The notes below the pieces were generated by a model. The model was not told the origin of the DNA, did no database searches, and saw only the letters and a list, made by a program, of their open reading frames with translations. A DNA stretch of 64,000 bases from Pseudisothecium myosuroides. Its lineage: Eukaryota > Streptophyta > Bryopsida > Hypnales > Lembophyllaceae. The stretch covers positions 3,410,001-3,474,000 of the forward strand of contig OX637297.1 in assembly GCA_951799445.1 (NCBI GenBank), read 5' to 3'. A program made the translations under genes and the position numbers. This document shows, one piece after another, positions 11,145 to 34,813 of the stretch; positions within the stretch are counted from its first letter, which is position 1; every line of letters starts with the position of its first letter.

Positions 11145-11164
11145 CAGGGTTGTCACATCGGACG
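11145..11164 (+). repeat. Left terminal inverted repeat of giant hAT
   Basis: CAGGGTTGTCACATCGGACG. The first 12 bases match the reverse complement of the right end (CAGGTTTGTCACACCGCC) with one mismatch; weaker similarity continues inward. Directly preceded by GATGAAAC. Confidence 0.92.
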
Positions 11165-11329
11165 AGGCAGGGTCACTGGACGTCCTGGATGGACGGGCGG
11201 CCCGGACAGGACAACCGGACGGTCTGGATGACTTCAAATTTCAGCGGGCTGGAATGTTTTGGCAAGTAAAAAAAATTACACTAATTTACCTTTACCTCGT
11301 GATGTGGCGTGGTGTCTGAAGACGTGGAA

Positions 11330-11825
11330 TTCTATGCTGGAATCGGGCGCGGACGCTAGGGACGCAGACGCAAAGGGGGGCGGAAACGTCCTTGTCTTGG
11401 CGTGAATTCATATAGGCGGATACTGAACAGGCCAGGGCGCGGACGGTAAAGTGTGGGTGGGAACTTTGATGTACGGGCGTGGACTCATCTGGGCGCGGAT
11501 GTACAGTGCCTAGGCGCGGACGGTTAAGTGCGGGCGGAAACTCTGCTGTATGGGCGTGGACTCAGACGGGCGCGGACGTACAGTGCTTGGGCGCGGACGT
11601 ATTTGGTTGGGTGGAAACGCATAATCATGGGCGCGGACTTTGAGCGGCGGCACCGTCAAATGTCGGGGCGGGGATTTAATGGTTCGGGCGGAAACGTTGT
11701 TGTCCGGGCGCGGACTCTGACAGGCTAAAACGTGCAGCGTTTGGGCGCGGACTTAGTATGTCTAGGCGTGGACTCTACTGGGCTCGGGCGTGGACCCTGC
11801 CAGGCTGGTGCGCGGACTTTGAAAT
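11330..11825 (+). repeat. Left subterminal GC-box array (GGGCGCGGAC motif)
   Basis: About 20 degenerate copies of GGGCGCGGAC or GGGCGTGGAC(T), spaced roughly 20-30 bp, CpG-rich against an A+T-rich neighbourhood. The right end has the same motif in reverse orientation (34398-34650), the arrangement expected of subterminal transposase-binding sites in hAT elements. Binding is inferred. Confidence 0.75.
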
Positions 11826-12150
11826 AGCTTTATGTTTTAAGGGTTTAAGGGTTCTTTTTTCATGGAATTAGGATGAAATTAGTTGATAATAAAAGTTTGT
11901 GGCACTTTCAATTAATCTTATCCTTTAAGAAATGTTAAGCATATGCTGCCAGTTACAGTTGACCAACGAATTGAAAATACATCACAAATTCAACACGAGT
12001 ACAAAACTACAAATGCACAATTCTTCATAAAAACCAAAAATGTTTATAGATTTTGTGCATTGCAAACCACACAATACAATGAACACATACTTCTATAAAA
12101 TGTAGATTGGTTATCTAAAGCACTCTTGCTCTTTCTACTGGATCTTCCTT
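11826..12150. other. A+T-rich 3' flank of the hAT transposase
   Basis: About 300 bp with no reading frame or repeat that I recognise. It probably holds the 3' untranslated region and polyadenylation region of the minus-strand transposase gene; TTTAAGGGTTTAAGGG near 11838 is a chance telomere-like run. Confidence 0.4.
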
Positions 12151-15100
12151 TCAAGTGCTTGAATTTCCTTGAACACCTACTGTTGCTTCCCCTGCATTAT
12201 TCAAACGATTTGATCTATGGCGTTCTTGGGTAGCAGGTCCTGCCAAGCAAGCATCTAGAATGCACACATCCTCATCTGCTGGTGCTTCATCACAATTGGT
12301 GTCAAACTCGTATTCGTCCTCTTCTTTGTCTTCATCTTCTGCACTACCGAGTGCCCCTTCTTTGTCACCATGAATCGATGTTCGAGGACCCTCAACTTCT
12401 GAATTTTCATTTCGAAGCTCAATGGTTCCACCTTTTCTATTCCTCATACTTACTATTTTCTTGTGTCGCTTCGCAGCGAGATCCTCTACATCAGAGTTTA
12501 TAGCTAGGCCCCTTCGAACTCTAGGAACAACAAATGCTGGGGTTGATAAGGTGGGGCCCGGAGTGTACGTCTCTAGGAACGGCGCTATCACCTCATCAGG
12601 ACGTCGTACTCCAATTCCCCGTAGAGGACGTTTTGGTGCCCTTGATGATGACGGAGCACCTGTGGCCCTTCCTCCACGAGAAACGGGACGTGGCAACCTA
12701 TATTGGCCCACTGGGTGAGGACCAGGACGAGGGGGTTTAGGGGGTCTACCACCCCTAGTAGCATTTGAAACATTATTCACGGTCACCTCAGCATTCTCCA
12801 CAGGGCTTATTCCTTCATTGAAGTTGAAAATGTCCATAGGGTCAGTAGCTTGGATAGGGGGGGGTGGAACGTTGTGCCGACGGTCTTGATCTTTGACCAA
12901 CAACAGGAACTGAGGCACAAGCTAGCACATTCGGAGGATTGTGTGTTTGTCGACTATTGTCTTATACATGGTCGCGGTGTAAAGGCCTCCCACCACCAAT
13001 GTTGGGAGGATTTGTGGCAGTAGGTTCAGTTGTTGATGTACTCCCAATGTTTGGTCTATAGCACCCTGATACAAATGTATTGCCACCACGTTGGCTGCTC
13101 GATCCACCACGTCGACCACCCGCCGCACCACGTCCTTGACTACTGTCGCCATCGTGGACAGACCCTTGATTGTTTGGAGTTGTACGGTTACCCAAATTCC
13201 CTCCATTGCCATCGTTGCGGTCATCTCTATTTCTGCCATTATTTCTAGGGGGATGGTTGTCGTCATTGTTGTCATCGTTGTCGGGGTTATCAAGATTGTC
13301 AAGATTTGTTGCATTCGGTTCATCGCTCTCTGAAGAAGAAGATAAATTGTTCACCCCAGCAACACCTTCATTTTCATGGGGGGGAGGTGAAAGACTGCGA
13401 CGGGGCATGGGACCACCCCAACGGTCATGGGGAATATTGTCCTCCTCATCACGTCCGTCCCTGTAGTAGTTCCTTGCTTCTTCAAAGTGATTGGCACCCT
13501 CCCTCCAAAGATCACAGTTCACTTGGTATGTCGAAGGGGCTTTGTTCACTTCTATGTTGTCTTGAGCCTCATCCTTTGCATGCATTGCATTAAATACGCG
13601 ATTAGGTTCACCAACTGGAACGGGGCCAAGGGCATCCGGATCGGAATCCTCCGAGTAAACATTTGCATCATACCAATGAACTGGATCAGCCCCAGGTTTC
13701 TGACAAAGGACACGGCTATTGGTATAAATGTATACCAATGATTCTGCCTTTTCCACTGCAAGTCGGTTTCGGCTTCTATTGTGGACAAAAGAATACATAC
13801 TCCAATTCTGTTCACAAGACGATGTTGAACACGTGAGGGATAAAACACGGACAACAATCTTTGACAAGGCACGGTCTCCAATCCTATGCCACCATTGGTG
13901 GGGGAGCATGCCGGCCTCACGGATGTTGGGGGATTCTTCATGGCTATACGGTCCAACGCCCTCTTCATATTGTGTTAATTCCGCCAAGACATCATCAAAT
14001 CGTACACCCACTATACCCTCTAGTTTACGGATGATCCGATACAATGCTCGAAGGGCAACTCCATCAATCTTAAGATGCGGGTGATTTCTGATGTATGGGT
14101 TTAATAGTGCACCTGCATAGTGAAGATCAGAATATGCCATTGCCCATCTTTTGTCGAAGGACGCCTCCAGAGCGTCAGCCACTTGAGGCGGCAGAGAGAA
14201 GGGAGGCTCTCTCAATGAGAACACATGTCCTCGCAAGTTGTGCATTGTGAGCCATGCCTTGCCCATGGTAGCTTCGCGACCATCGAACACTCGCAAGGCC
14301 TTCAATACATCTTCCACTATGTGTACATAGTTCACATACCGTTGTCAGAAGCCAAGATTATTGATGGTGTCGACTACAACATCTGCCAAGGTACGTGGCT
14401 GCTCCCCATTTTGTCTATTTTGTAGCCCCGCAACATAATTGAGAACACGTGGTTGTTGAACCAAGGCCTCTGGTTGTGGTCTTAGTAAGACCAAACGTTG
14501 TAGCATGAGGAAATTGCAAGCAAATTGAGTTTCCGCGAGTACTAACAGTTGTTTATTCGGGCTCAACTCGCGAAAAGTGGACATTGTCGCATGATGGCCC
14601 CTAATGTATTGGCACACCCTTTTTGCCCTAAGAATTAAATCTTTAAATTGATCGACCTTGGCCCAATCTTCCAACAGCAGATCCAATGCGTGCGCCACGC
14701 AACCCTGCTTAAAAATGTGCTTGTATGTGATGATAAGATCATCCACTGCCCCAAGCATGTTTGCTGCGTTGTCCGTACAAATTTGAGTTACGTTTTTGGC
14801 ACCCACCTTCTCGATGAATACTTTCAATTGATCTGCTATATAGATCATACTTTTCGTATGCCCGGAAGTGTCTATGGATCTGAGGAACAAGTCACCAGTG
14901 GGGCATGACATCATTACATTCATGAAGGGACGTCGATTGACATCATCCCAACCATCAGTGTATATTGACACCCCATAATTTTTCACCGCAAAAGCCGTTT
15001 TCGCTTGAATCTCATTCTCAATCTGTAACTTCTTGGGTTCAATTGATTGAGTCCTCAACTTATGGTAGGATGGCGGAGAGTATTCAAATCATGCCAATGA

Positions 15101-15724
15101 CGTTGCCTTCAACGCCTCGATGAACGCTGGATTCCTCGCCACATTAAATGGCACATTTGCTTCATAGAAAAAGCTCGCCCACTTTTCATCCAACTCCTTC
15201 TTCTTTGCAATATTGAGGGCATCGCTCATGCGTTGCTACTGTAATGGGCCAGATCTTGTGGAATTTGATGCAACTAGACTTGAGGATTTGTGAGGAGGTT
15301 GCGTTGATTCATTTGTGTTCCCCCCATCTCCAGTCATCCCTTCCGTTGCTCCATTTTGAGTGGATTGGCTCGAACTACCTGTTGGAGGTACTCGGGATGG
15401 CCCGTTGGGAGCTGACAGAGCATCCTGCATGTCCTCTGCACTCATCCGTTGCAGAACAAAGTTTCCACAATTGGAAAATTTCTGTCGCACAGCTCAAGGT
15501 ATATTAGGACACAACGACCTCTCTGACTTTGACCTGTATCCGAAATGCTTAAAAGAACGCTCACGTTTGTAGCTGAATGTCGCATTGCAGAAATTGCAAA
15601 TCACTTTAATCCTACAATCTAAAAACTTGTACCACGGTTCCCACTCTTTTGTTTGCTTCCGCAAACTTGCCATCATGATTATCAATGGATGTAAATGTTC
15701 TCCTGGTATAGGCCGGAACTTCAA
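12151..15724 (-). pseudogene. hAT transposase (BED-DUF659-hATC), decayed
   Basis: Would cut and paste the element by recognising its ends in the nucleus. One minus-strand frame runs from 15724 to 12962. First comes a BED-like finger (CNFC near 15590, then H and C), then a Ser/Thr-rich linker. The DUF659-type catalytic core has TDGWDD (first acidic residue near 14955), TDNAAN (second, near 14772) and GCVAHALDLLLEDW. The C-terminal dimerisation region has FDKRW, DLHYAGALLNP, WWHRIGD, RVLSLTCSTSSCEQNWS and RNRL near 13800. An Asn/Asp-rich tail follows. Four in-frame stops interrupt it (15494 TGA, 15236 TAG, 15089 TGA, 14345 TGA) and TAA at 12962 ends the frame. A Pro/Arg-rich then acidic tail (12918-12151) continues in another frame, probably after a small indel. 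The stop at 14345 falls where the family has the Trp of an FW motif. It appears intronless. Start uncertain: Met near 15673 is the best candidate. This copy cannot make full-length enzyme without readthrough. Confidence 0.9.
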
Positions 15725-15928
15725 CGTTGGATTAAGGCCAGTAACAACAAAATAGTGCTAGTAACAACTGTTAGCGCTGGTCGTCCACTAGAAGTGATTT
15801 TGACATCACCTCAGCATCAAACCAGGGCTGTCTTTCATCCACTATCTCTATCAACCTAGGAGCCCAAAATAGAGTCCTAGAACAGAGGCACGAGTGAAAA
15901 ACGTAAGGCCCTCTCCTGCTGCCTGCTG

Positions 15929-15937
15929 CTTATATAC
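15929..15937 (-). promoter_or_regulatory. TATA box of hAT transposase gene
   Basis: The minus strand reads CAGTATATAAGCAGC about 200 bp upstream of the first transposase codons, immediately at the edge of the GC-box array that begins at about 15945. Same layout as for genes B and C. Confidence 0.7.
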
Positions 15938-15944
15938 TGTTTTG

Positions 15945-16225: not shown

Positions 16226-16228
16226 GGT

Positions 16229-16239
16229 ACCATAAGTAC
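16229..16239 (+). promoter_or_regulatory. TATA-like element of gene A
   Basis: ACCATAAGTACCCGCCCGGCC resembles the region at gene B (CTATATAAGTGTCTGCCCAGCC on its own strand), so it may be a degraded homologous TATA box about 190 bp before the gene A ATG. Weak as a TATA box on its own. Confidence 0.4.
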
Positions 16240-16425
16240 CCGCCCGGCCAGGCACGGTCTCCAATGCTACCTTGGTCAGCCCCAAAATCTTGGAGTTCAC
16301 CTTTGAGCTCTAAGTTGGGGCTTTGGACCTCGGCAGCCTGGACACATGTAGCATCACTCCACTCGTTCATTTTGCTACTTGTGACCCTAGCTTGTACTTA
16401 GCCTTCGTTGACATCTTTGTGAAGT

Positions 16426-17520
16426 ATGTCCGAACAAAGTGAAGCATTGAATGTAACAGTAGATGTTCCTCGTACTATGAGGCCTCGTGATGTTGGGAGG
16501 AGTCACAATTGCAAGGCATCCAAAAAGCAGTTGCATATCCTACTCGATGTGAACAACCTTGCTTTTGCTGGTTGGAAAACTGAACCGCAACCTTGGACCC
16601 AGAAAACCTGTGACAAATACATTGAATGGTGCCACGTAGATAAATTGTTTCCACACAGTGTGCACAAGAAACACTGCAAAAACCAGGTGGCCAACCTTCA
16701 CTACTACAAAGACCCGGAGTTCCTTGAAAGATGCATCCAAGTGTCTCAACACGTCTATAATACTGCATACGTAGGTAGGAACAAATGCAGTCTTGCCATC
16801 TTGCGTATGGTGTATGCGGAAGAGAAACTCCTTCGTAGAGTAGACTGGAGTACGATAAAGACAAGTTCGACGCAGATTGTGAAAGCTCTAGAGGGCATTG
16901 ACATCCCACAAGAACGGAAGTATAAAAAATACGGGGGCCTTAGTAAGGCAAAAAAAGACATACTAAACATTCTAGATGTGTGTGTCGAGTGGTCCGAAGA
17001 CTCTGATGTTGACCTCAAATCAGGATGCACGAAAGAGGAGAGGGATGACAGATTTAAAAGTCTGCGAGACACTCAACTACGTTGTTACTAAGAGTCTCTA
17101 GTAGAAGACGGAGGCATTGAAGATGTTCATGTTGGAAAGGAAGAAACAAAAAATGACAATGTAGTACCTGCGCCGTCATCCAATCTAGTTGAGAATTTTG
17201 ACAAACACCTTGCCGAACTTGACATGTGGGACCAAGCGGCACTAAGGAATTCTACCAAAGGAACTATGTTAGAACCTCCCATGGTGGCACAAGGGTTATT
17301 ACATTTGCTGGAAGAGGAAACATGGATGTCCAACCGAGACAACGCATCCTTGCTCAAAATGATTGAAGACCTGCAAATTGAAGTCTCGCAACTCCATCAA
17401 GAAAATGATGAACTCGATATGCGCATAGAAATCATGAAAAGAGATTTTTGTATTAAGGAGGAAGCATACAAGAAGAATATTGCTGACCTCGAGGCTCGAG
17501 CACGCATGCCACCATTCTGA
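16426..17520 (+). pseudogene. Cargo gene A: LAF-GW domain plus coiled coil
   Basis: Unrecognised protein of about 364 codons with one in-frame TAA (17089-17091); the frame stays open on both sides. Residues about 38-160 hold a domain shared with gene B: LAFAGWKTEPQPW, then YIEWCHVDK, FP, ANL, DPEF, CIQV, RN and VDWSTIK, all at matching spacing. The C-terminal 60 residues (from about 17340) show heptad-like Leu/Ile spacing, so a coiled coil is likely. It has no RING, unlike B. The ATG at 16426 follows a roughly 190-bp leader after the TATA-like box. It is divergent from the transposase across the 15945-16225 array, so the two may be co-regulated. Function unknown. The YIEWC segment and helical look faintly recall the N-terminal SAM-like fold of tyrosine recombinases, but no catalytic domain follows. 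A DNA-binding or accessory role is a guess. Confidence 0.72.
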
Positions 17521-18045: not shown

Positions 18046-18265
18046 ATGGGACTAAAAATAAAGTGAATGCCAATCTAATGATTTAAAATTTGACTCCACC
18101 ACTTAGGCATTTGCTTCTGCTCCCTCCCCATTTTTTTATCACAAGTAAGTCCCCACTTAATGATTTAAAATTTGACTCCACCACTTAAGCATTTGCTTCC
18201 ACTCCCTCCCCAATTTTTTTTATCAAAACTGAATCCCCACTCAACCATCTAAAAGCATTCACTTT
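18046..18265 (+). repeat. Sat2 repeats, 83-bp monomer (block 1)
   Basis: Two to three units of TTTAAAATTTGACTCCACC, ACTTAGGCATTTGCTTCC, ACTCCCTCCCCATTTTTT, ATCACAAGTAAGTCCCCACT. Monomer spacing measured at 24028-24111 is 83 bp. All Sat2 blocks left of 24180 are in this orientation. Confidence 0.85.
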
Positions 18266-18274
18266 GGGTTTTGG

Positions 18275-18500
18275 GGGGTGCTCGAGTGCGGACTTAGGGC
18301 GCGGACTTAAGAGAGTTTTGGTTCACTCCCAAATGCTCCTGGTTTTCGGGACTGTTCGGGCGCGGACTTAAGGCAGTTTCTGAAAGCCTCCTAGTTTTTG
18401 GGATTGTTCAGGCGCGGACGTAGGGGCGCGGACTTAATCGTGGGCGCGGACGCATGGCGGGGACTCAATCACGAGCGCGGACAGAGGGCATGGGCGCGGA
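18275..18500 (+). repeat. GC-box array, internal copy 1
   Basis: About nine copies of GGGCGCGGACTTAA-like motifs. Together with the following 150 bp (GGCATGGGATTCTCCCTCC, GGAAGCTCATTCTTGCTCC) it is repeated at 24215-24590, showing a duplicated block of about 1.16 kb once the inserted LTR is discounted. No gene follows it directly. Confidence 0.75.
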
Positions 18501-18684
18501 CTCAAGAATCCAGCAAACCGCCCATTCCCAGCCACTTTGACCTCGGCATGGGATTCTCCCTCCCCATTCAAAGTAGTCTCCATTAAGTTCGTGGAAGCTC
18601 ATTCTTGCTCCCATATTTGGATCATTGAATATGCAAATGAAGGAGTTCAAGTACCTTCTCATCAATTGGTCCATGTTCCTTCAC

Positions 18685-19005
18685 CACCCTCCCCATTTAA
18701 TTTTAATAAAAAAAGTCAATCCCAACTCAATGATATAAAATTTGACTCCACCACTTAAGCATTTGCTTCCACTCCCTCCCCATTTTTTATATCACAAGTG
18801 AGTCCCCATCTCAATGATTTAAAATTTGTTTTTATCACTTAGGCATTTGGTTACACTCCCTTTCCATTTATTTTGAATCACAAGTAAGTCCCCACTCAAT
18901 GATTTAAAATTTGACTCTATCACCTGGGCATTTGCTTCTATTCCCTCCCCATTTAAAAAAAATAAGTGAATGCCAACCCCATGATTTAAAATTTGACTCC
19001 ACCAC
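18685..19005 (+). repeat. Sat2 repeats (block 2, left of inserted LTR)
   Basis: Four units of the 83-bp repeat in plus orientation, cut at GACTCCACCAC. ACCAC (19001-19005) is the left target duplication of the nested LTR. Confidence 0.85.
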
Positions 19006-22000
19006 TGTGAGCTCCCAATTTGTCACTTGGGACTCGTAGAATTATTTTTTTGGAAATTTGCAATTTAAAGTTGATAAAAATATAGAAAAACCCATAAAAA
19101 GAGTGTAGAACCGAAATAGGGTTGTGTCATACCCATTATAGTATTTGGTCTAGATTTGTGTTTTTTACTTAGAATCCCCCAAACCTTGCCAAAAAATAGT
19201 ATAGAAATAACGAAAAGGTTAGATTTGGAGGATTCGAGTCACACAGCCCCAAAAGGGCTAAATCCCACCATGAATGTGGCGATTCATGGCTAGGTCGGTC
19301 CGAGGGATCCACAGCGAGGCCACTAGGTCGGGTCCTAAAGTTAGATTTAGAATTCCCCATTAGATCGACGAATTCCCAAAATCCTGATTATTAGCATGCA
19401 GGAGCCACTCACGCAAGACCGAGCCCGTAGAGGAATCTACAGCCCAGGGATGGTATTCTAGGGTGAATCCCATGCCAGGAGTCCAATGGCGAAATCGGTT
19501 TGCCAAGATTCTTCCACCTGCAAAAGATTCCCGCACCGTCGCTAATTCGAGGAGATGGCCAGTTTTAAATCTCCATTGACCAATCGTGCCAGGTACGGAA
19601 ACACACCCGCACGTCTTTCATGCGACTCCCTGAGAGGTCACGTGAAAAATCCCGGCATCTTCCGACTTGCAGAAGAATCTTTTTCGGGTGGTCAACCCTC
19701 CTAACCTCCAACGGGAATTTCATGGAAATTATCCAGGTTACAATAAAATCTCACTAAAAATTAGACTAGCTTGTTTTATGTTAATAATGCGCTCCGTGAG
19801 GTTTCATGACATTCCGATAGCGGCAAGTACCTGAACCGGCGAGATTCCTCGGAAATTAACCACGTGGCGGGGTCCCAGCCACGTTGACCGGCATCCCGGG
19901 CCCATACAATGGCGAAACGAAGTCAACCAAAAGTCCTTCCCGACTCTCTTGCACCTATCGGAGACCCTAGGCTATTCACATTTCTCAAAATAGGAGACCC
20001 CCAAGATCTAGGATTTTACCACGATTTGGTTTTTAAACTAAATTAGTCTACGATGGGTTTTTGGCCTCGGTACGGGGGGTAGGGTTGTACAGGACTAAAC
20101 ACGGCGATCTGGATCCAACGGCGCAATCCGTTCGGCAATTGGAGCTAATCTCCAAAAGTTAGGATGTTGGTCTAGCATAGATGGTAGAAGTAGAAATTTA
20201 GGATGTAAGATGAAAATCTTTGAGGATAAGGATGAAAATCCCCATTGATAAGGTTACCTTAGAGCTTTAGAGAGAGGGGTGAGCCCTTGGGAAACCTATA
20301 TAAGGGCCCCATTTCTCTCTCTAAAACACCCCTTCACTTTTGTTTGGGTTCGTGGGTCCAATTTGCTTTGGATATTTTGGCGTTTGAAGCCAAAAACCTC
20401 TACGGTGTTTTTGGAGCACTTTTTGCTCCATTGTTGCTAGATTTCAAGCTTTAAAGGTCCTTAGGGAGTCCTTCTATCTTGCCTTGTGTACTTCTCATAC
20501 GTTGTTGTACCTTTGTTACGAATTAAGAGTCCTCGTTTCTCTCTTGTAGTTCCTTTGTGATCTAACTTGTGAGTTTAGGAGTCTTTTGGTGTCTTGTCCG
20601 AATCCTAAAGTCACCCCCCACCGTACCTTGGCGATGCCGCTTTGGGGGGCCTTTAGCTTGTGAAGTTGTGTATCTTTACGTGTCCTAACCGTGTTGTTTT
20701 TCCTCACTTGTGTATTCTCATCCTCTTCTAATCTTCCCCTTGTTGTGTGGACCTCCCCTCGGGACGACGAAGCTTTGGCTTTGTCACGTGTGTTTCTCAA
20801 GTCTGTCTTTTCTACCTTCTTCTAATATTTCCCTTGTTGCGTGGACCCCCCCTCGGGACGGCGAAGCTTTGGCTTTGTCACGTGTGTTCCTTAAGTTTGT
20901 CTTTTCTACCTTCTTCTAATATTCCCCTTGTTGTGTGAAACCCCCCATGGCGTCGAAGCTTTGCACTAGTGACCACGTCAAGTCCTATAGTGTGTGTTAA
21001 AATAGTCTTAGACGGCGGAGCTTTGAACTCGTGGAGTGTTACAAGTCCTAAAGTTGGTGTTAAAACCAATTTTACGGCGGAGCCTTGAACCTCCATAGCC
21101 TTAGATTCCAAAGTCTAGTTTCCAAGACCTTCTTGGAAAAGTCCAGAGTTTAGCTTCCAAGATTGGTCACGAGTTTCTAGGAAGAGAGTGACCATCCCGT
21201 AATACTTAGCTTAGGTGACCATTCTAAAAATTTGGGGCCTAACTCCCCGGACGGCGAAGCTTTGATCCTGGCCCTAACCCCCTACTAAAAAACCAATTTA
21301 AGTTTGTGTTAGTGGGTTCCCCTAAGGGAACCCGGTTGTGTAGATTTTTTGGGAAGGGCAGCTAGTACCCCGGACCAGCATATAGCCAGCATACAGCCAG
21401 CCATACTGGACCGGCATACCAGACCAGCCGGCAGCCAGCCATACAGCCAGCATACATCGGGCAGTCAGCTTAACTGAGCTGAACATCAACATTGGGCTAG
21501 TCTGTTTGACTGAACTGAACATCAGCCATCGGGCTAGTCAGCTTGGCTAACTGAACTAAATTTCTGGATTTCTAGAACTAAACGGGACGATGCCCTGCAG
21601 AGCCCTAACCACCCTTTTTTTTTTATTTTTTGATCTTTTAAAGTCTGAAATTTTGGAATCCAGTTGGGGAGAGGAAAAAACTCAACTTGGAACTTCAAAA
21701 ACACAAGAGAAAGGGGGGGAGAAATAGAAGCTGCCACTCCACGCGCCACCTGCACAAAAACATCCGATCCTACCTGCATCACCACTCACACCTACACACA
21801 ATGGAAGGAAATTGGGGAGAAGGATGTGTTATAGGAGTGGAAAGGAGAGAGACGATGAATAGTGCCTAGCTAGGAGATTAGGTAGGAAATCTAGAAGAAC
21901 TCCTTGCAACCGTTGGGAGGAGGATTAGGATGACACAAAGCAAAGTTGCGTAAGAGGGTAGGAGGCTCATTAAAACTTCACAAAGTTTGAGACTAGAAGC

Positions 22001-23781
22001 GTAAGACCACCATCACCACGGTTGGTGGAATAGTTCAAGAGTAGAAGAAAGAGGCGGAGAGAAAGAAAAGGAGAAGGAAATGGGGGGAAAGGGTTAGAAC
22101 ATCATACGTGTAACGTTTTCTTTTCTACAAATTAAGCCGTGGGCCTTGAAAAAAATAAAATAAATAAAAACCGTAATACAAAAATAAAAGAAGACAATCG
22201 CGAGTGGTCACCATGGAGCACGAGGACGCGCATGTGGACGGGGATGACGTCATTTCCGACACTAGCAGTAACGAGGTGGATCATTAAACTAATCCTAGTC
22301 GTTTCTCCCTAATTAGCATTTGTTTTCCTAATCAGCCCTTAGAGCGTGATTAGCATCCAAGATTAGCGTGAATTAGAACTTTAGATTCAAAAGTTGATAG
22401 ATTAGGGATAGAGGGTTCCAAAAACATCTTATAATTAAGATTCGACCGTAAACTGACCGCGTTAGGCTAAGTTAAGCGGTAGGGGGTAGAACGGAGGAAT
22501 TTTAATTAAATTTGATCCACAAGGAACAATGGACGGAAATTAGGATTAGATTAGAAGGAGAATTTAGGATAAAAATTAAAGATCAATTAACGGTTAAAAA
22601 CCTAGAATTAAATTAAGATTTTAATTAGGGAAGTTAAAATTCAAAAGTCGAAATTTGGAGTTAACTTTGGGAAGTAAAAAGTAGAGTAGGAAATAGAAGT
22701 CAAAAGTAGAATCCACTTAGGAAGTAGATTGTTGAGTTAAAAATAGAGTTAAAATTAGAAGTCAAAACCCTAAAATTAAAAGTTGGAATTAAATTTAGGA
22801 GGATAACATTTAGAGTTAATCTAGGATTAAAACGATAGGATTAAATTTGGAAGTAGAAGTCAAAGTCAAAAGTCAAAAGTTTAGATTAAATTAAAAGGTT
22901 AAATTTTAGTCAATTGGGGAGTAAAAGGTTAGAGTGAAAAGCTAAAAGTAGAAGTTAAAAGTTAGAGGTAGAAGTTAAATTTTAGAGTTAGTTGGAAGTA
23001 GAAAAATCTAGAGTCAAAGTGAAAACGTAGAATCAAACCTAGAGGTTAAAATTGGGGATTAATTTTAGAAGTAAAAATTTAGAGTTAAAAGTCAAAAACC
23101 TAGAGTTAAATTAGGAGTAAAAATCTACAATAAAAAGTGAAAAGTTAGAGTTAATTTTAGAGAATAAATCTTAGAGTAGTTTAGAAGTAAGAACATAGAA
23201 TTAAAAGTGAAACTTAGAATTAGCCTAGAAGGTTAAAACTTGGAAGTTAGGAGTTGAAGTTGATTTAGAAGTAAAAACCTAGAGTCAAAAGTCAAAACAA
23301 AGAATTGAAGTCAGTAGTTAATATCTAGAACCAAGTTGAAGAAGTAAAATCTAGAGTTATATTCAGAAATTGGAACTTTAGGGGTAGCTTTTAAAAGTAG
23401 AACTTCTAGGTGGAGTCTTAGAAACCCAAGATAGTCTTAGGGGTTCATGGAAGGAACATAGGGGTTCCCTTTTTTACGTAGTTAGGAACGTTAGAAATGA
23501 CGCCAACTACCCAGTCTACCCTCGACATAGGATAGATAGTTAGGGAATCAAGATTTCACCATCACTTTGAACATTGCAGTTAACTTGTGAGTTACTACAT
23601 GCATTACTAATTATTCGCTGCCATCCACGACCCTTAGGAAACGTTAGCAAAAAAGATCCATTGCTTGGAAGGCACAGTGGACCGCGCTCACAACACCCCC
23701 ATATATTAAAAAAGTGGATAAAGGCATAGAACCTGGTCGGTGTTCGCTTTATTACCAAGGGTGGGTAATCTAGCGCCCACA
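19006..23781 (+). mobile_element. Solo long LTR, subfamily B, nested in the giant hAT (4,776 bp)
   Basis: Begins TGTGAGCTCCCAATTTG and ends TCTAGCGCCCACA. The 5-bp duplication ACCAC flanks it (19001-19005, 23782-23786), and the Sat2 monomer is intact across the two flanks. It is in the opposite orientation to the other LTRs here. U3 contains the TATA box at 20296. The central module has the GTATGCTGGC micro-repeats of subfamily B (21360-21540, reverse strand). No internal retroelement sequence remains. Its presence dates the giant hAT insertion as the older event at this place. Confidence 0.93.
20296..20306 (+). promoter_or_regulatory. LTR TATA box (CCTATATAAGG)
   Basis: AAACCTATATAAGGGCCCC on the plus strand, 1.29 kb from the U3 end, identical to the other LTR copies. 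The remaining 3.4 kb to 23781 would be R plus U5, unusually long for a plant LTR. Confidence 0.7.
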
Positions 23782-24180
23782 ACCACTTAGGCATTTGCTT
23801 CCACTCCCTTCCCATTTTTTTTTATCACAAGTAAGTCCCCACTCAATGATTTAAAATTTGACTCCACCACGTAGGCATTTGGTTCTACTCCCTCCCCATT
23901 TAAAAAAAAATAAGTGAATGCCAACCCCCATGATTTAAAATTTGACTCCACCACTTAGGCATTTGCTTCTGCTCCCTCCCCATTTTTTTTTATCACAAGT
24001 AAGTCCCCACTCAATGATATAAAATTTGACTCCACCACTTAGGCATTTGCTTCCACTCCCTCCCCATTTTTTTTATCACAAGTAAGTCCCCACTCAATGA
24101 TTTAAAATTTGACTCCACCACTTAGGCATTTGGTTCCACTCCCTCCCCATTTAAAAAAAATAAATGAATGCCAACCCAAG
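23782..24180 (+). repeat. Sat2 repeats (block 3, right of inserted LTR)
   Basis: Five units of the 83-bp repeat, GACTCC marks at 24028 and 24111 exactly 83 bp apart. Starts with the right copy of the ACCAC duplication and continues the monomer interrupted at 19005. Confidence 0.88.
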
Positions 24181-26091: not shown

Positions 26092-28421
26092 TCAATCGAT
26101 ATTCATGGGGCTGCCTGCCGTGCCACTCGGGCCTGCTTCATTGTCGTTTCCCCCCGCTTCTACAATGTGGTCTTCGTCTGAGCCTAGACGAAGTCGTCGA
26201 ACTTTAGACCGGGTTCGTCTTGCTGGTCCATCCACCTCCAATACAGCCCTCATAAACTGTGAGTTCTGCATTTGTTGAAGAGCTTGTCAAGTCCCTGGAC
26301 TGTATTTGTCAAGCAAAAAATCTATTGCATCGGACTTAAAAATCTCTCTCCACTCGAATTCCGATCTGGCAAGCATCTCGGATTGGGAAGGTATTTCATA
26401 TCCGGATTTGTCTATGATCCGAACTCCATCATCATTAGTGATACGGACTCCATCAATGCTCCATAGCCATGATTTGAGGTGAGGTCCCATACGGAATTTT
26501 AGAGTATCTTCGTCCCAATGTCCATTGAAGCACTGGTAGAAGAAATTCCGTTTCCTGAGACTGAACTTGTCCTTCATTGGGATCAAATTCTTGCACACTC
26601 GCATAACTTCATTTAGATTTCTCTCCCAACCCCATTCATTAAAGAGATGTGGTTTTTGCAAAGAGTGGTGCTTGTAACGCCAACTCCACACAAGGTCTTG
26701 TCCCCATACATTGTGATCATCAGGGGCATTATATACATCGAATTCCCAATTTGGAGGCATATATGAAACCAACCCAAACAGCTCGTACAAGCGCTCGTAG
26801 AAAGGAGCCTTTCATATTGCACACCGTCTACAAGTTATCATCAAGCTGATCAAGCAAATTGGGTGGTAGAGGTGCTCGCATGTGCCTAAGTGCATTGCAC
26901 CTTCGGGGCCAAATGGATTCATACAAATGGGGCACAAAGTACCGTCAAACACAAAGATTGAAGGCTTTGGCCACAACAACATTGGCTTGCCCGGAAGCGA
27001 AGAGATCGCATTTTTGAAATCCCAGTTGTGTTGGGACCAGTCAATGATGGTTTGATTGCCCGCAATTTTTTGGGTTGCCATCTCCGCAAGGTTGAAAAGG
27101 TCATCTACATTGGCCCATGACGTTAAGCCGAAAACCCTTTCTTGATTGTGTTGAAAGTAATTGTTGGCAACCTTCTTGAACTCCACAGCCATTTGTTTGT
27201 TCTGATCCGTTGTGAAGATGCATGCCAACTTCCACTGATAATATTGCTCTACCAATGTATCCAAATGACTTTGAAGATCAACATTTTGGGCACGTACTTT
27301 TGTGAGTTCTTCAGTATTTGGAAGTGTTTGCCCCCCCCCTTGCCTTCCACAACTGCGACACTCATAATGGCATTCAAAGTATCAAACGACAGTGAATCTT
27401 GCGTTGGTGTCATGGATGCAGCAACTTCTACAGCATGAGTCACAATATTTTCTTGCATCTGAGGTATTTCCATGCCATCTGCTTCCTCATGCATGCCTTC
27501 ACGATGCCCTCTTGGGTCAGCAACCTCAGTTCTCATTGTAGCAGCTTCTAGAGCTTGCCGAAGTTCTTGTATGTCACGTTCTTGCTTTGCAAGTAGGTCG
27601 TTTTTCTCCTTCAATTGGGTAACGAATTGGGCGGACGCAGCAGACAAGTCATGAATGATGTCATCTTTTTGGCCCAATTCATTCTTCAAATTGTTGATAG
27701 TATCGGCCGCAACAATAGCAGCTGCTGTCCGCACCACGTCATCTTCGCCCGTTGCTACATTTCCTTGTATTGCATCCAAAGCAGTTTGTAGTGCCTTCCT
27801 TCTCTTGGCTTGTTGCTGCGCTTTACGGCCAAGTGGACGTGGTGGAGTATGAGTTCCATCTGAGTCGCTATCTGTAGCGGAATCATTGGTCTCGTAGTTG
27901 TCAACTGAATCAATTTGCGTCCGGACACTACCCAAACCACCCTCTGGAAACTTTTTTGCCTTTGGAATGAATCCGTTGGCAGGAGTTGGAACTATAACGT
28001 TTGAGCCAACATCTTTCAAGGTCGACCAATCCACTTGCTTTTCAAGCTTGATTTTGGCGTGGACACCTCGTGCAATGAAAAGATTCACTTCGTTTCGTTT
28101 CACGTGGGGCTGGTTGTACAAAAATTGGTAGACTTCAATGCAATGATTTTTGAATTCTGGGTCGTTGCAGTGCTTCAAGTTGGCTTTGTGAAAATGACGA
28201 TGGAAATTGTGTCGTTCTTCTGGAAAGACCTTGTCAATATGGCACCACTCAATGTACTGAGCGCATATATCAGCATTCCATGGATCAGGCTCCTCCCTCC
28301 ATCCCCTGAATGCAAGTTTATTTGGATTTCTCAATACGTGTAGCCGCTTGCGGTGTTTCTGTCTCGGTCGTAAGCAATTTTTGTCTTTCTCTGCCTTCGT
28401 CAGCCTCTGTGGTGTTTCCAT
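26092..28421 (-). pseudogene. Cargo gene B: LAF-GW domain, coiled coil, RING-H2, basic tail
   Basis: Minus-strand gene of about 776 residues. Start METPQ at 28421, chosen because a TATA box lies 135 bp upstream and the longer frame would begin inside it. Domain 1 matches gene A: LAFRGWREEPDPW, YIEWCHIDK, FP, ANL, DPEF, CIEV, RN and VDWSTLK. Then come Pro/Ser/Asp-rich sequence and a long coiled coil (to about 27460). The RING-H2 has CPIC, CEHLYHPIC, ten residues, then CAI followed by a TGA (26812-26814) exactly where the last zinc-ligand Cys should be, then KAPF. A Trp-rich region follows, then TGA (26287-26289), and the same frame goes on to a basic tail (RRTRSKVRRLRL) ending TGA at 26092. 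A one-base loss in a G9 run (27331-27339) shifts the frame between coiled coil and RING. RING-H2 proteins are usually ubiquitin ligases; that role here is inferred. Confidence 0.78.
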
Positions 28422-28555
28422 CGCTCGTAGAAATCGAAGAAAAAACGTGTGGGTGTAATGTAAGAAGGCCCTACAATGACGCCCAACCAACCAGCTCAAA
28501 GAGAATTGGAGGAGGAGGGAATTTGTGAGGCGAGTAATGAGTGGCTGGGCAGACA

Positions 28556-28565
28556 CTTATATAGC
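28556..28565 (-). promoter_or_regulatory. TATA box of gene B
   Basis: The minus strand reads GGCTATATAAGTGTCTG, 135 bp before the ATG at 28421, with a GC-box array directly behind it (28575-28815). Confidence 0.75.
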
Positions 28566-28924: not shown

Positions 28925-29475
28925 GAAAATGGGGAGGGGACTGACGGAGTGGAAGCAAATGCCTAAGTGGTGGAGTGAAATTCTAAATCATTGAGTGGGG
29001 ACTTACTCGTGATAAAAAAAATGGGGAGGGAGTGGAACCAAATGCCTAAGTGGTGGAGTGAAATTTTAAATCATTGAGTGGGGACTTACTTTTGATAAAA
29101 AAAAATGGGGAGGGAAAGGAACCAAATGCCTAAGTGGTGGAGTGAAATTTTAAATCATTGAGTGGGGACTTACTTGTGATAAAAAATATAGGGAGGAAGT
29201 GGAACCAAATACTTAAGTAGTGGAGTCAAATTTTAAATCATTGAGTGGGGATTTACTTGTGATAAAAAAAATGGGGAGGAAGTGGAAGAAAATGCCTAAG
29301 TGATGGAGTCAAATTTTAAATCATGGGGTTGACATTCACTTTTTTTTTTTTAAATGGAAAGGGAGTGGAAGCAAATGCTTAAGTGATGGAGTCAAATTTT
29401 AAATGTTTGAGCGGGGATTTACTTGTAAAAAAAAATGGAGAGGGAGTGGAACCAAATGCTTAAGTGGTGGAATGG
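28925..29475 (-). repeat. Sat2 repeats (block 4, reverse orientation)
   Basis: Six to seven units of the 83-bp repeat, here as GGAGGGAGTGGAACCAAATG and CTAAGTGGTGGAGTC, that is, inverted with respect to the blocks left of 24180. Confidence 0.88.
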
Positions 29476-29479
29476 GATG

Positions 29480-29630
29480 CGCGCGTGGACTTATTCTTGT
29501 CCGGGCGTGGACTTATTCGAAATGGGCGTGGACTTCTTTGTGTTCGGGCGTGGACTTAATCGGGTCTGGGCGTGGACTTAATCAGGTCGAGCGTGGACTT
29601 AATCGGGCCGGGCGTGGACTTAATCGACTG
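29480..29630 (+). repeat. GC-box array, internal copy 3
   Basis: Seven very regular copies of GGGCGTGGACTTAATCGG at about 20-24 bp spacing. The cleanest example of the motif in the window, and the start of a tandemly duplicated 1.2-kb block. Confidence 0.8.
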
Positions 29631-30035
29631 CAATTGCAAGTGAGGTCAATAAGATTTGAAGAAACAAATCCTAAAGCATGAAGGTCCAACCAACCATTTA
29701 AGCTACGGAGTTGTAGCGACATGGAGTCCTCTTTCTTCCCTAGAGGTCATGGGTTCGAATCTTACCCAGCCTTGATTAGCACCTATAAATATAATTAACT
29801 GCTAAGACAATTCAAGGCACTAAAGATGTTTATAGCTGTTAATCAGGGCTTTTATTTGGCATAAGGACTTTTGTCGATTTTTATCGTGTCATTTGAGCTT
29901 CTTACATTTGTAATTGTTTTGACGATGCTTACTTGTCTTTATAGTTGTGGCAATTGATATATTGTGTCTTTATAGTTGTTGCGATTCTTTGTTCACTATG
30001 GATGGGAAAAAGTTTGATAAAATTGGGGGGGGATT
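29631..30035 (+). repeat. Unit of a 1.2-kb tandem duplication, with Pol III B-box-like sequence
   Basis: CAATTGCAAGTGAGGTCAAT begins at 29631 and again at 30828, 1,197 bp later, and both copies run on for about 400 bp in step. GGTTCGAATC at 29752-29761 fits the tRNA-type B box, so a relic of a tRNA-derived SINE is possible. No convincing A box or A-rich tail was found. Confidence 0.55.
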
Positions 30036-30760
30036 TACTTGTGAAAAAAAAATGGGGAGGGAGTGAAACCAAAGACTTATGTAATGGAGTCAAATTTTGA
30101 ATGTTTGATTGGGAATTTACTATTTCAATTGTGATTAAGAAAATGGGGAGGGAGTGGAATCAAATGCTTAAGTGATGGTGTCAAATTTTAAAGGTTTGAC
30201 TAGGGATTTACTTGTGATAAAAAAAATGGAGAGGGAATAGAAGCAAATACTGATGTGATGGAGTCAAATTTTAGATGTTTGAGTGGAGATTTACTTGTGA
30301 TCCAAAAAATGGGGAGGGAGTGGAACCAAATGCTTAAGTGATGGAGTCAAATTTTAAATCATTGAGTGGAGATTTACTTGTGATAAAAAAAATGGAGAGG
30401 GAGTGGAAGCAAATGCTTAAGTGGTGGAGTCAGATTTTAAATCATGGGGTTGGCATTCACTTATTTTTTTTAAATGGGGAGGGAGTGGAACCAAATGCTT
30501 AAGTGGTGGAGTCAAATTTTAAATCATTGAGTGGGGACTTACTTGTGATAAAAAAAAATGGGGAGGGAGTGGAACCAAATGCTTAAGTGGTGGAGTCAAA
30601 TTTTAAATCATGGGGTTGGCATTCACTTATTTTTTTAAAAATGGGAAGGGAGTGGAACCAAATGCTTAAGTGATGGAGTCAAATTTTAAATGTTTGAATG
30701 GGGATTTACTTGTAGAAAAAAAAATGGGAGTGGAACCAAATCCTTAAGTGGTGGAATGGA
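30036..30760 (-). repeat. Sat2 repeats (block 5, reverse orientation)
   Basis: About nine units of the 83-bp repeat, some diverged. Lies between the two copies of the GC-box plus unique unit. Confidence 0.88.
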
Positions 30761-30764
30761 ATGC

Positions 30765-30827
30765 GGGCGTGGACTTATTCGAAATGGGCGTGGACTTAGT
30801 CAGGTCGGGCGTGGACTTAATCGATTG
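30765..30827 (+). repeat. GC-box array, internal copy 4 (short)
   Basis: Three copies of GGGCGTGGACTTA, homologous to 29480-29630 but with fewer units. Confidence 0.75.
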
Positions 30828-31230
30828 CAATTGCAAGTGAGGTCAATAAGATTTGAAGAAACAAATCCTAAAGCATGAAGGTCCAGCCAACCATTTCAGC
30901 TACGGGGTTGTAGCTACATGGAGTCCTCTTTCTTTCCTAGAGGTCATGGGTTCGAAATTGAAGAATGGTTGTACCTAGCACTAATTAACACCTACAAATA
31001 TAATTAACTGCCAAGACAAGTCGAGGCACTAAAGATGTTTGTAGCTGTTAATTAGTGCTTTTATTTGGCGTAAGAATTTTTGTCGATTTTTGTCGTGCCG
31101 TTTGAGTTTCTTACATTTGTAATGTTTTTGACGATGCCTACTTGTCTTTATAGTTGTGGCAATTGATATATGAAAGGGATGCGATTCTTTGTTTATTATA
31201 GATGAGAAAAAGTTTGATAGAATTGGAGGG
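30828..31230 (+). repeat. Second unit of the 1.2-kb tandem duplication
   Basis: Copy of 29631-30035 at about 90 percent by eye. The B-box-like site is changed to GGTTCGAAAT, and a short segment after it differs (TTGAAGAATGGTTGTACC). A microdeletion near 31175 removes one TATAGTTGT unit. Confidence 0.7.
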
Positions 31231-31640
31231 GGGGAGGGTACTTGTGGAAAAAAAAATGGGGAGGGAGTGAAACCAAAGACTTAAGTGATGGAGTGAAATT
31301 TTGAATGTTTGATTGGGGATTTACTATTTCAGTTGTGAAAAAAAAAATGGGAAGGGACTGGAAGCAAATGCCTAAGTGATGGAGTCAAACTTTGAATGTG
31401 ACTAGGGATTTACTTGGGGAAAAAAAATGGAGAGGGAGTGGAAGCAAATACTGAAGTGATGGAGTCAAATTTTATATCATTGAGTGGGGATTTTCTTGTG
31501 ATTAAAAAAATGGGGAGGGAGTGGAACCAAATGCTTAAGTGATGGAGTCAAATTTTAGATGTTTGAGTGGGGATTTACTTGTGATTAAAAAATGGGGAAG
31601 GAGTGGAACCAAATGCTTAAATGATGGAGTGAAATTTGAC
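31231..31640 (-). repeat. Sat2 repeats (block 6, reverse orientation)
   Basis: About five units of the 83-bp repeat up to the GC-box array of gene C. Confidence 0.85.
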
Positions 31641-31644
31641 ATCC

Positions 31645-32036
31645 GTTAGTCGGGGACTCAATCGGTCGGTCGGGGACAGAGTGGAGGCACACAGTGTCCG
31701 GGCGGGGACGCAATCAATCCGGGCGGGAACGGAAATGGACGGGCGGGGACGTAAGGGAACTTTGTCGGTCGGGGCAGGAACTCTGTGAGGAGGGGCGGGA
31801 ACGTATAAACGGGCGCATGCGGATGTTGGCGGGGACTTAATCGAGCTGGGCGGGTATGCCATTGGTCGGGTGGGGACTTATTAGGAACGGGCGCGGACTG
31901 GTGGAGTTGGGCGGGGACGTAGTGGCGCAAGGGCGGGGACGTAATCGAGCGGCTATGGAGTACTGTCGGGATCGGGGCGGGAATGCTATGAGAGGGGCGG
32001 GAACTTAGCCAGGGGCGCATGCAGCTATCGGGGTGG
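31645..32036 (+). repeat. GC-box array upstream of gene C
   Basis: About 16 copies, mostly of the form GGGCGGGGACTTAATCG, ending a few bases before the TATA box at 32040. The subtype GGGCGGGGAC is predominant here, against GGGCGCGGAC or GGGCGTGGAC in the other arrays. Confidence 0.78.
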
Positions 32037-32039
32037 GGG

Positions 32040-32049
32040 CTTATATAAT
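32040..32049 (+). promoter_or_regulatory. TATA box of gene C
   Basis: GGCTTATATAATCCCC, 176 bp upstream of the gene C ATG and at the edge of the GC-box array, the same architecture as for gene B and the transposase. Confidence 0.78.
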
Positions 32050-32215
32050 CCCCTCCCCCTTCATTCTCCCTTGCCAAGCCCTCTCCGGATGCCTCCCAGG
32101 TTAGATCACTTTGTGACCTAATTAGAGAGATTGGTGGAGTTTAGGGCTTGGCCCTAACAGCATACCCGTTTTTTTTGCCCTTTTTTCCAACGAATACGAA
32201 GTATTGTTTTTGAAA

Positions 32216-33799
32216 ATGGCAGCAGAAAGGAGTGCTTCATCGGGGAAGCGTTCGATGTATGTGGATTTAGATAGGCCTGATGAAGAAGATTTTCCATCAA
32301 CAGACACGTCAATGGCCTCAGCTTCATCGAGGCCTTCATCATCATCGGGGAAGAAGAGGGCGAAGAAGCCGCCGAGCCCAGGTTGGCCCCCACAACCCTA
32401 CTTACATGAAAGTAGGTTAATATTGGTGGAGTGGTACAAAGTGTGGAGCATTGAATCGATGGAGAGGAACTATGTGAACAGGAACATCATTGTTTACGAT
32501 GCACTGATAGAACATTTGCGGAAAGAGTTGGAGAATAAGTTAGTTGAATCAGAGCAATTCAATAATTACTCAGATTACTGGTTACACTCAGAGTTCTTGG
32601 ATAACACGGTGGTACAACTTACTACCAATCTTGTGGAAAATTGGCGCTATTGTACCAAAAAAAGGGAAGACAAGAGCAACTGGGATGAAGTAGATAGAGA
32701 GTTTGCTTCAAAATTACGCATGGTTCAAACATGGTGTCGGCAGTTTAGTGTAAGTTGCCACAAACAAAAACAACCATGGAAGAAAACAGTGGAAGACAAA
32801 ATTTTGACTGAATGTGTGAGCGGATCAATGTTCTGGCTAGCACCATCAGTTAAAGTGATACAAATGCTAGGGCGAAAGACGGAAGGTGCATATGGGACCA
32901 TCAGGAAGGTGCGACTTACCAAACTTTCAAACATTCCCAACTGGATGGATTTTGCGGGGAAGATTTTGAAGACACTAAATGAAAAGGAAAAACGTTGCAA
33001 TATGTTGATGGAGGCTACGGGATGTCCAGTACAGCATCCAGGCATCATTAGACTCACATACATGCATCCAAAAATGATGGAAGGCTATTCGCTTTGGTGG
33101 AATGGGGGATCTTTAATTTCTTTTTGATGCAAGTTTGATTCCACAGTTCCCTCAGATGCGAGCGAGGAGGAAATTCTGAACATGACTGATACAGTGTTGA
33201 CATTGAAGGAACTGCAGTGGGTCGCTACATACCGCAAAAATCGCACTCACTTAGCACTGTCATTACTTGTTATTGTGGGGAAATACCACGAGGCTGACTA
33301 CATATACAATGATATATTGACATCCAATATTTTGCTCCATTTTGCTCCAAGGAAAAAGAATATAGTATATTTGGGGATTTGTGATTGGGGACTTTCAAGT
33401 CGAGTTGTGGAAAAGGCGCCGTCAAGATACAATTATCGAACTGAGAAAGAACTTCAGGACGTGAAAAAAGTCCGTCAGTTTGCTGCTCCAGAATTGTTCT
33501 TTGTATATGGTGACCAAGGCTCAGAAGACTCACTTGAGGTCATGGAAAAAAAACACTTATACTCCAAAGCTGCTGATGCACATGCAGCAGGATGGATAGC
33601 AGCTCAAATTTGGAAAGAAGACTGGGATCCAATTTATTTCAACAAAGAACGGCTATGGCAATATAAACACCTAATATCGAAATTGCATAGCCTCCAAATA
33701 GAGGATCCACAAGAAAGGGCGTCCATCCCGGAGGTTCTCGATAAATTGAGGATGACACCATTATGTAAGAGTATGCCTGAGTGTTGTTACCGAAGATAG
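32216..33799 (+). pseudogene. Cargo gene C: divergent protein kinase-like protein
   Basis: About 527 codons in one frame with a single internal TGA (33125-33127); start MAAERS at 32216. The N-terminus is Ser-rich and basic (GKKRAKKPPS, a possible nuclear signal), followed by a helical region of about 150 residues that I do not recognise. The kinase-like part starts near residue 220: glycine loop EGAYGTIRKV, FAGKILK with the expected Lys (32960), HPGIIRL, catalytic-loop equivalent YNDILTSNILL (Asp at 33310, HRD replaced by YND), DFG replaced by DWG (33383), and FAAPELF for APE. Asp, Asn and Lys positions are kept, so activity is possible, but the HRD His and Arg are absent. The TGA lies between the N- and C-lobe motifs, so this copy would be cut in two. 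It is divergent from gene B. Substrate unknown. Confidence 0.8.
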
Positions 33800-34385
33800 T
33801 AATTTTCTTGTTTTCATTCTTGAAAGTTTAGCATATGATAGTTAGGTTGAAGGCAAAGATTATAGTTCACTTGTAATCCTCATAGAGGAACATGTATATT
33901 TGGCATCAGCTGAACGCCATCCTATATATATATACCTATGGATATATTCAAAATACTATTGTATGCAATTCTTTTATTTGTTTTCCCTGGCATCAAGTAG
34001 AAGAAGGTGATCTATACATGTCCAAATTCTAAAATGATACAACCATAACCCTAACAAACTTAATAAAAAATTTTAAGAATGAAAATTAATTATTTCATTA
34101 TTTTTTTTCCGCAGACTCTCAACTCAATTCTTCACTATAAAGATTGGAAGCTCAAAACCATCTAGTGCAAAATTACTTAAGTTAAACAAGGTTCACAAAC
34201 AAAACATCTAAACCTCCATTGTCTTGAAAAACTTGTTTTTTTCACTTTAAAAGCAGATATCTTACAATTTGTGAATCCTAAACTTTGGAATTTTTTCCAC
34301 ACATTCTCATACTAGTGAGGTGAAAGATCCTATGTTTAGGAGAGAGAATTTTTCTTTTCAATTTTTTGAACTTTTTTCTTGGACC
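33800..34385. other. A+T-rich 3' flank of gene C
   Basis: No frame or repeat recognised. TATATATATACC near 33925 and scattered AATAAA-like sequences fit a 3' untranslated region and spacer. Confidence 0.4.
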
Positions 34386-34397
34386 TTCAGGGTTCAA

Positions 34398-34650
34398 TTC
34401 GGCCTCAGCGTCTGCGCCCCACCCGACAAACGTTCACACCCGACAGAGAGTCCACGCCCAGACCAAATAGAGTCTGCGTCCACCACAGAGTCCGTGCAAG
34501 TACCGACAGACCTCCACGCCCATCCACGCGTCCTCGCCCCTACCCGACTAAGGTTCGTGCCCGTCAATGCGTCCGTGCCCACACCATTTTACGTCGCCGC
34601 CCAGGATAACGTTCGCGCCCCCAACCTGCTTACGTCCACGTCCTGAACCG
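34398..34650 (-). repeat. Right subterminal GC-box array (inverted)
   Basis: About ten copies of GTCCACGCCC and GTTCGCGCCC, the reverse complement of the motif in all other arrays. Mirrors 11330-11825, as expected for the two subterminal regions of a hAT element. Confidence 0.78.
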
Positions 34651-34793
34651 CGCTGGCAGCCAGGTGTCTGTCACTGTGGACAAGGTAAATCCACGTCTAC
34701 ATATTTTAACCTTGTCAAAAAGTCAATCGGGCGTTGACTACATCGGACGGCTGGCACCTCTACCAGACGGGCAAATCAGGCGGGCGGGCGGTC

Positions 34794-34813
34794 TAGGCGG
34801 TGTGACAAACCTG
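34794..34813 (-). repeat. Right terminal inverted repeat of giant hAT
   Basis: Ends GTGACAAACCTG, followed directly by GATGAAAC (34814-34821), the right copy of the 8-bp target duplication. Confidence 0.92.

Follow-up and report, generated by a model that had tools for sequence, protein, structure and literature searches.

Giant hAT transposons in the moss Pseudisothecium myosuroides appear to carry a recurrent kit of RING, N-domain and kinase genes alongside their transposase

Members of the hAT superfamily (Ac, hobo, Hermes, Tol2 and BuT2 among them) are textbook small cut-and-paste transposons whose target-site duplications follow an Ac-type (nTnnnnAn) or a Buster-type preference, and vectors derived from them are able to move more than 20 kb. 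A sequence-only reading of the DNA treated here had put known autonomous hATs at usually a few kilobases with one or two genes, and hATs are described elsewhere as 2.5–5 kb long (PMC3942097). The DNA in question is a 64,000-nucleotide stretch of the genome of the moss Pseudisothecium myosuroides (contig OX637297.1, positions 3,410,001 to 3,474,000; hereafter the window), and within it lies a giant hAT element whose further copies and relatives are grouped below as families I to V, the window copy belonging to family I. Judged from sequence, the group is hAT by its duplications, ends and transposase, and stands apart from the described hATs by its length and the genes it carries. It has in common with the superfamily an 8-bp target-site duplication (in all seven family-I and all three family-V copies read, perfect in family III and matching at 7 of 8 bases in family II), short terminal inverted repeats (TIRs) and a transposase with a dimerisation domain, whereas the elements here measure 17.6–33.5 kb and carry at least two extra genes, well outside the typical (though not defining) hAT length. 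The twelve duplications read show no clear consensus by eye.

Other large mobile units invite comparison. Mavericks, or Polintons, are likewise large multi-gene DNA elements and have an integrase and a capsid protein. They span ∼20–40 kb and encode their own DNA polymerase (PMC8232201); among the 18 proteins scanned here with Pfam, a subset of the open reading frames (ORFs), none gave a convincing score for polymerase, integrase or capsid, a DNA_pol_B_thumb match at E 0.22 being noise. The Starships of fungi, whose captain lies at the 5' edge, resemble the moss elements in giant size and in bringing several genes into each mobile unit. The captain is a tyrosine recombinase (DUF3435; PMC12506042); the same 18 proteins contained no Pfam match to DUF3435. 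ToxhAT (ToxTA) of fungal wheat pathogens is described there as a 14-kb element that has TIRs of 74 bp and duplicates a 2-bp TA target, and for which the authors propose a non-autonomous Tc1/mariner identity (PMC12506042). It is like the moss elements in being a large class II form with cargo genes that was once named a hAT, and differs in that the moss elements have 8-bp duplications and a hAT transposase of their own. Searches of open-licence literature, preprints excluded, listed no giant multi-gene hAT by title or by the opening lines of the abstract; one may nonetheless be described in unpublished work, in subscription journals or in repeat databases.

The explanation that best accommodates the observations, and that we regard as highly probable, is that the window holds a decayed giant hAT copy, inserted as a unit in a 177-bp satellite, and that the transposase of these families travels with a kit of further genes likely to be auxiliary to transposition or to escape from silencing. 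Its components differ in strength: there is very little doubt about the structural part, namely that these are giant single-unit hATs with ends, duplications and linked genes, while an auxiliary role for the kit is favoured by only a little.

In the window, the element occupies positions 11145–34813 (23,669 bp) between perfectly matching copies of the 8-bp duplication GATGAAAC (11137–11144 and 34814–34821). Its left TIR is CAGGGTTGTCAC (11145–11156, plus strand) and its right TIR (34802–34813, minus strand) reads GTGACAAACCTG as shown and CAGGTTTGTCAC on the minus strand, the two 12-bp ends being complementary at 11 of 12 positions. A neighbouring monomer of this satellite type bears a single GATGAAAC at the equivalent place (35170–35177), which is the empty-site form, and other monomers differ at that position. 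Subtraction of a solo long terminal repeat (LTR; 19006–23781, 4,776 bp, TG...CA) with its 5-bp duplication ACCAC leaves a core of 18,888 bp; the LTR is a later insertion rather than a part of the element, and is absent at the same place from the other family-I copies compared. The sequence-only reading had proposed just such a single insertion of 23.7 kb (about 18.9 kb without the LTR) in a satellite monomer, and the ends, the duplication, the single-copy neighbour and the measured lengths all agree with it. At up to two mismatches the 12-mer end occurs at three places in the window, no excess over chance for the 12-mer alone, so that the evidence for the window element lies in how its ends pair, in the duplication and in the further copies. 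Across the whole genome, exact matches to the 12-mer number 79, against 24 for a reversed control.

Four genes lie between these ends, as had been proposed: a transposase, a RING-H2 protein, a paralogue sharing the latter's N-terminal domain (the N-domain) and a kinase-like protein. The decayed transposase gene (12151–15664, minus strand) includes DUF659 within 14345–15088 and the hAT dimerisation domain within 12962–14344, both above the Pfam cut-offs (E 3e-37 and 1e-7); its N-terminus is finger-like when set beside families II and III, and its tail ORF (12151–12921) resembles the family-II tail by eye. Candidate Asp, Asp and Glu positions of an RNase-H-like DDE site in these transposases were seen by eye alone. 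The N-domain paralogue gene (16423–17520, plus strand) encodes the domain in common with the RING protein and a tail that looks coiled-coil-like by eye. Next comes the RING-H2 protein gene (26167–28457, minus strand), with its N-domain and coiled coil within the ORF 27249–28556, its RING finger within the ORF 26812–27381 and a conserved C-terminal domain, and last the protein-kinase gene (32126–33799, plus strand), with an N-terminal region followed by the kinase domain at ∼32837–33799. Compared with its relatives, the window copy has several stops in the transposase, a stop that cuts the RING finger at its last metal-binding segment and another between the two kinase ORFs, and is therefore a fossil.

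Further copies make the case for a family. Family I was sampled as the window copy and six others taken from loci where ends and genes coincide, and all seven have both ends and a matching 8-bp duplication that is different in each, one terminal C reading T in two of them (on contigs C1 and C6). The transposase, N-domain, RING and kinase genes are colinear and in the same order in six of the seven, the pattern by which the sequence-only reading had proposed that such a family be recognised; the seventh is an internal deletion of 8,677 bp in which the RING and N-domain genes are gone but both ends, the transposase and the kinase remain. Colinear blocks (those of at least 250 bp were kept) cover most of the 18.9-kb core at 76–96% identity, with differing nested insertions, and these insertions together with the one deletion account for copy lengths of 8.7 to 37.1 kb. 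The protein searches scored the best candidates only, and all counts from them are lower bounds; among the matches listed there are at least three more broken family-I copies (C6:29.07–29.15 Mb, C8:1.54–1.55 Mb and C3:3.32–3.41 Mb), two of them spread over ∼80 kb.

Family V is young. Its TIR is CTGGGTTGTC, and three copies have perfect and differing duplications: C2:17532480–17560291 (27,812 bp; GTCCTGCT), C1:432286–459250 (26,965 bp; ACCAATGA) and C3:27286398–27314143 (27,746 bp; ATTATAAT). The end regions compared are 99.2–99.5% identical, save one stretch of 242 bp in the C3 copy, where identity drops to 93.8%, and the C2 copy has open frames for a transposase of 1149 amino acids, a RING part of 839, N-domains of 349 and 381 and a kinase of 497. 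When the 24-mer ends were sought at up to two mismatches, 43 left and 44 right places were returned, with none for the reversed control, and 41 of the 43 left ends have a facing right end within 80 kb at a median interval of 27,758 bp. The interval is 26–29 kb in 27 of these 41, with extremes of 7.9 and 54.6 kb. A transposase is present in 36, a RING gene in 39, a kinase in 39 and all three in 36; two intervals with none of the three lie close together on C2 (44.79–44.83 Mb). Only 2 of 38 family-V transposase matches and 6 of 45 RING rows fall outside paired intervals, three of the latter beside unpaired ends and three from relatives at 70–72% identity (the 45 rows are a by-eye selection from 133, made on identity and frame). 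Uninterrupted frames are common: 12 of the 38 transposase matches, and 27 of 42 kinase matches, are full length and free of stops.

Nested insertions are frequent in this genome, and the window element has internal tandem arrays and duplicated blocks, so smaller unrelated elements inserted in one another might be imagined to have come by chance to lie within outer hAT ends. Against this stand six family-I copies at separate sites, which repeat the order of the core and the sequence between its genes, and the recurrent 27.7-kb units of family V; inside the window element no further TIR-like site was found at up to two mismatches. Such a composite origin was rejected on the colinear family-I copies and the recurring family-V unit, and we consider it the most improbable of the alternatives weighed here. 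Scarcely more probable is that the transposase today moves small derivatives only, and that segmental duplication or satellite exchange accounts for most of the spread of the giant form. The decay of the family-I copies and the retention of both ends by the 8.7-kb deletion derivative would suit that account, but each of the ten family-I and family-V copies with both ends read has a target-site duplication of its own, which segmental duplication does not make.

The kit extends to more distant relatives, in families whose transposases are only 35–47% identical. Families II and III have the end CAGGGTTGTC in common, and the TIR core of the group is 10–12 bp, either CAGGGTTGTC(AC) or, in family V, CTGGGTTGTC. 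Family II is represented by one copy of 17,586 bp (C2:27267532–27285117; TIR CAGGGTTGTCAT) encoding a transposase, a RING protein and a kinase, and family III by one of 33,510 bp (C7:13651194–13684703; perfect duplication CTTCCCTT) with an 850-amino-acid RING ORF, two N-domain ORFs (518 and 498 amino acids), a kinase and a transposase. Frames on both sides of the family-III copy read by eye as Ty3-type pol pieces, and its target was for that reason probably another transposon; the copy seems to sit inside a Ty3-type pol frame, which would give a relative age order for the two insertions. Family IV consists of ∼20 closely scoring units, chosen by eye by identity and frame, with the related DUF659/hAT transposase and kinase of the other families mostly ∼5 kb apart (for example C2:10766780–10774018), the transposase lying in a 1076-amino-acid frame in the copy examined; no convincing pair of TIRs and duplications was found within the 15 kb examined. 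Pfam matches above cut-off to the dimerisation domain and DUF659 were obtained for the window copy and for families V and IV, and the transposases of families II and III are assigned by homology.

Proximity of the genes across the genome points the same way. A transposase match lies within 35 kb of 90 of the 145 kinase matches listed, and both a transposase and an N-domain or RING match lie within that distance of 40. With contig C11 set aside as crowded, 60 of 94 kinase matches are within 35 kb of a transposase, against a mean of 1.9 and a maximum of 7 in 1000 runs with random positions (five split kinase and four split N-domain or RING pieces were dropped beforehand). Similarly, 91 of the 150 transposase matches listed have a RING or N-domain match within 15 kb; off C11 the count is 65 of 107, with a null mean of 1.3 and maximum of 5 in 500 runs, in a set that came to 250 rows in total once five small-contig N-domain rows had been dropped and rows picked by eye had been added. 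Both nulls use estimated lengths for C5, C8 and C10.

It might be supposed instead that the RING and kinase genes were taken up from the host by an ordinary hAT and are now of use to the host, as happens in the Starships of fungi, given that the kit genes have recognisable cellular domains and that large hAT-like elements could tolerate extra DNA. This seems unlikely, since the same gene types recur in families at 35–47% transposase identity. Moreover, all 42 family-V kinase matches of at least 85% identity are in or near family-V elements, 39 between paired ends and three within ∼25 kb of an unpaired end (searched among the best 86 of 323 candidates), so that the outcome the sequence-only reading had named as fatal, the genes at fixed places with no hAT ends, was not seen in this family; nor did those 86 kinase candidates include a host-like single-copy source, though host kinases may fall below the cut. 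The kit thus looks, from its repeated presence in separate families, to be recurrent rather than a one-off capture. The earlier description of the element as cargo-bearing holds as to the extra genes, but the word cargo understates their role because they recur as a kit in diverged families.

Comparison of the window copy with family II gives ratios of nonsynonymous to synonymous change (dN/dS) of ∼0.13 for DUF659, 0.16 both for the hAT C-terminal part and for the RING finger, 0.25 both for the RING C-terminus and for the kinase domain, and 0.30 for the N-terminal part of the kinase; silent sites are saturated in the RING N-terminal part and in most deeper comparisons. Purifying selection between families I and II is therefore apparent for the transposase and for the kit genes. 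In the kinase, D62, N67 and D86 (the catalytic Asp and Asn and the metal-binding Asp) are invariant in 10 aligned sequences, as is the DWG motif. The best relative in the PDB is a weak one (VRK1, E 0.007), and the family-V kinase is distantly like other Ser/Thr kinases. The N-domain is modelled as mainly helical, with core blocks at a predicted local distance difference test (pLDDT) score of 94–98 and a mean of 83.6; a PDB profile search gave a best E of 0.35, and the domain is a candidate new fold, a missing match being weak evidence for novelty. Relatives in a large protein collection (52 for the N-domain, with no precomputed Pfam domain, nine for the kinase and seventeen for the RING protein) indicate that the kit proteins likely occur beyond the genome of P. 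myosuroides. A viral origin or viral relatives of the N-domain and kinase were also considered and rejected, profile scans of viral contigs having returned 41 and 9 pattern stretches, respectively, and no relative.

There is reason to think that the motifs near the ends take part in mobility. G-rich subterminal repeats (GGACG/GGGCG/GGACT) occupy 11145–11894 on the plus strand, where 750 bp contain 33 motifs on the G strand and 2 on the C strand, and recur in inverted orientation at 34314–34813 on the minus strand (13:4 in 500 bp); the corresponding counts in family II are 12:1 and 10:2, and the bias is weaker in families III and V. Inverted GGACG-type motifs near both ends would fit predicted transposase-binding repeats, a view these counts support. 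The encoded transposase may bind them and carry out cut-and-paste movement; that the element inserts as a single unit, with a staggered joining of 8 bp, is shown by the sequence. The kit, whose predicted products are a ubiquitin ligase of the RING-H2 type, the N-domain paralogue and a kinase, would be co-inherited with the transposase and may assist transposition or counter silencing. The shared N-domain could be an adaptor, or a DNA- or protein-binding module, that recruits the RING ligase either to the element itself or to a silencing factor of the host, a role that is a guess because the fold has no match, and the kinase would modify the transposase, the ligase or chromatin proteins. On a bolder view, which seems to us somewhat more probable than not, this is an undescribed lineage of giant self-mobilising hATs that still move as ∼27.7-kb units and have a regulatory system of their own. 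Its parts, a RING ligase, new-fold N-domain adaptors and a divergent kinase, would have descended together with the transposase across families old enough to be down to 35% transposase identity, and would serve as a multi-gene operating kit rather than as cargo.

Several observations weigh against so full an account. Stops interrupt kit or transposase genes in all seven family-I copies, and mean dN/dS within the family is 0.39–0.72, as expected of copies that are mostly dead; on both grounds family I is probably no longer autonomous. Among the matches listed, 55 of 145 kinases have no transposase within 35 kb and 59 of 150 transposases no RING or N-domain match within 15 kb. Gene order, though common to the family-I copies, differs between families I, III and V. 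A separate N-domain paralogue was not found in family II among the best 150 of 470 candidates, and of the 20 family-IV copies none has a RING or N-domain match within 15 kb and one has such a match within 35 kb, so that some relatives evidently do without the full kit. As regards the proteins, Pfam matches to RING are weak and below the cut-offs (best 7e-5), a C3H2C3 metal-binding pattern being visible by eye in the proteins of families II, III and V; the Pkinase match (E 3.6e-6) is below the curated cut-off; the RING C-terminal model is poor (pLDDT 59.5); and a Foldseek search with the N-domain gave no match in the PDB and viral models only at E > 6. The dN/dS values are simple pairwise counts with no formal test, and the subterminal motif numbers are raw counts with no shuffle control in an element that is rich in the motif, with the same strand bias, throughout its length (165:53 in family I).

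If the account is correct, a control system made up of several genes can travel on a eukaryotic transposon of the cut-and-paste kind, and this in a superfamily regarded as minimal. It would also make testable the question of whether transposon-encoded ubiquitin ligases and kinases influence the activity of the transposase or silencing by the host, and family V, whose copies are nearly identical and have open frames, lends itself to experiment. For genome annotation, kinase and RING genes of the kit could be miscounted as host gene families.

Some features of the surrounding sequence may be recorded in addition. Tandem arrays with a ∼83-bp unit at 28946–29471, 30022–30755 and 31333–31637 (span 28946–31637) are inverted relative to arrays at 18050–19006 and 23782–24152, so that the RING gene lies between two sets of opposite orientation. 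Arrays of the ∼177-bp satellite, the insertion target, occupy window positions 1–1294, 6618–9978, 10541–11144, 34841–36888, 60051–62821 and 63041–63636, and between them an LTR-type element on the minus strand (36886–60047), whose long LTR-like flanks are internally repetitive, is related to the solo LTR inside the hAT. Identically scoring 260-amino-acid N-domain frames are found at C10:3182, at the contig start, and on the small contigs C49, C105, C179 and C217, and perhaps mark an unplaced repeated region. Contig C11 (16.9 Mb, ∼4% of the genome), which holds the window, contains 43 of the 150 transposase, 51 of the 145 kinase and 40 of the 95 N-domain matches listed, many with stops, a crowding that would fit a low-recombination and possibly a sex chromosome.

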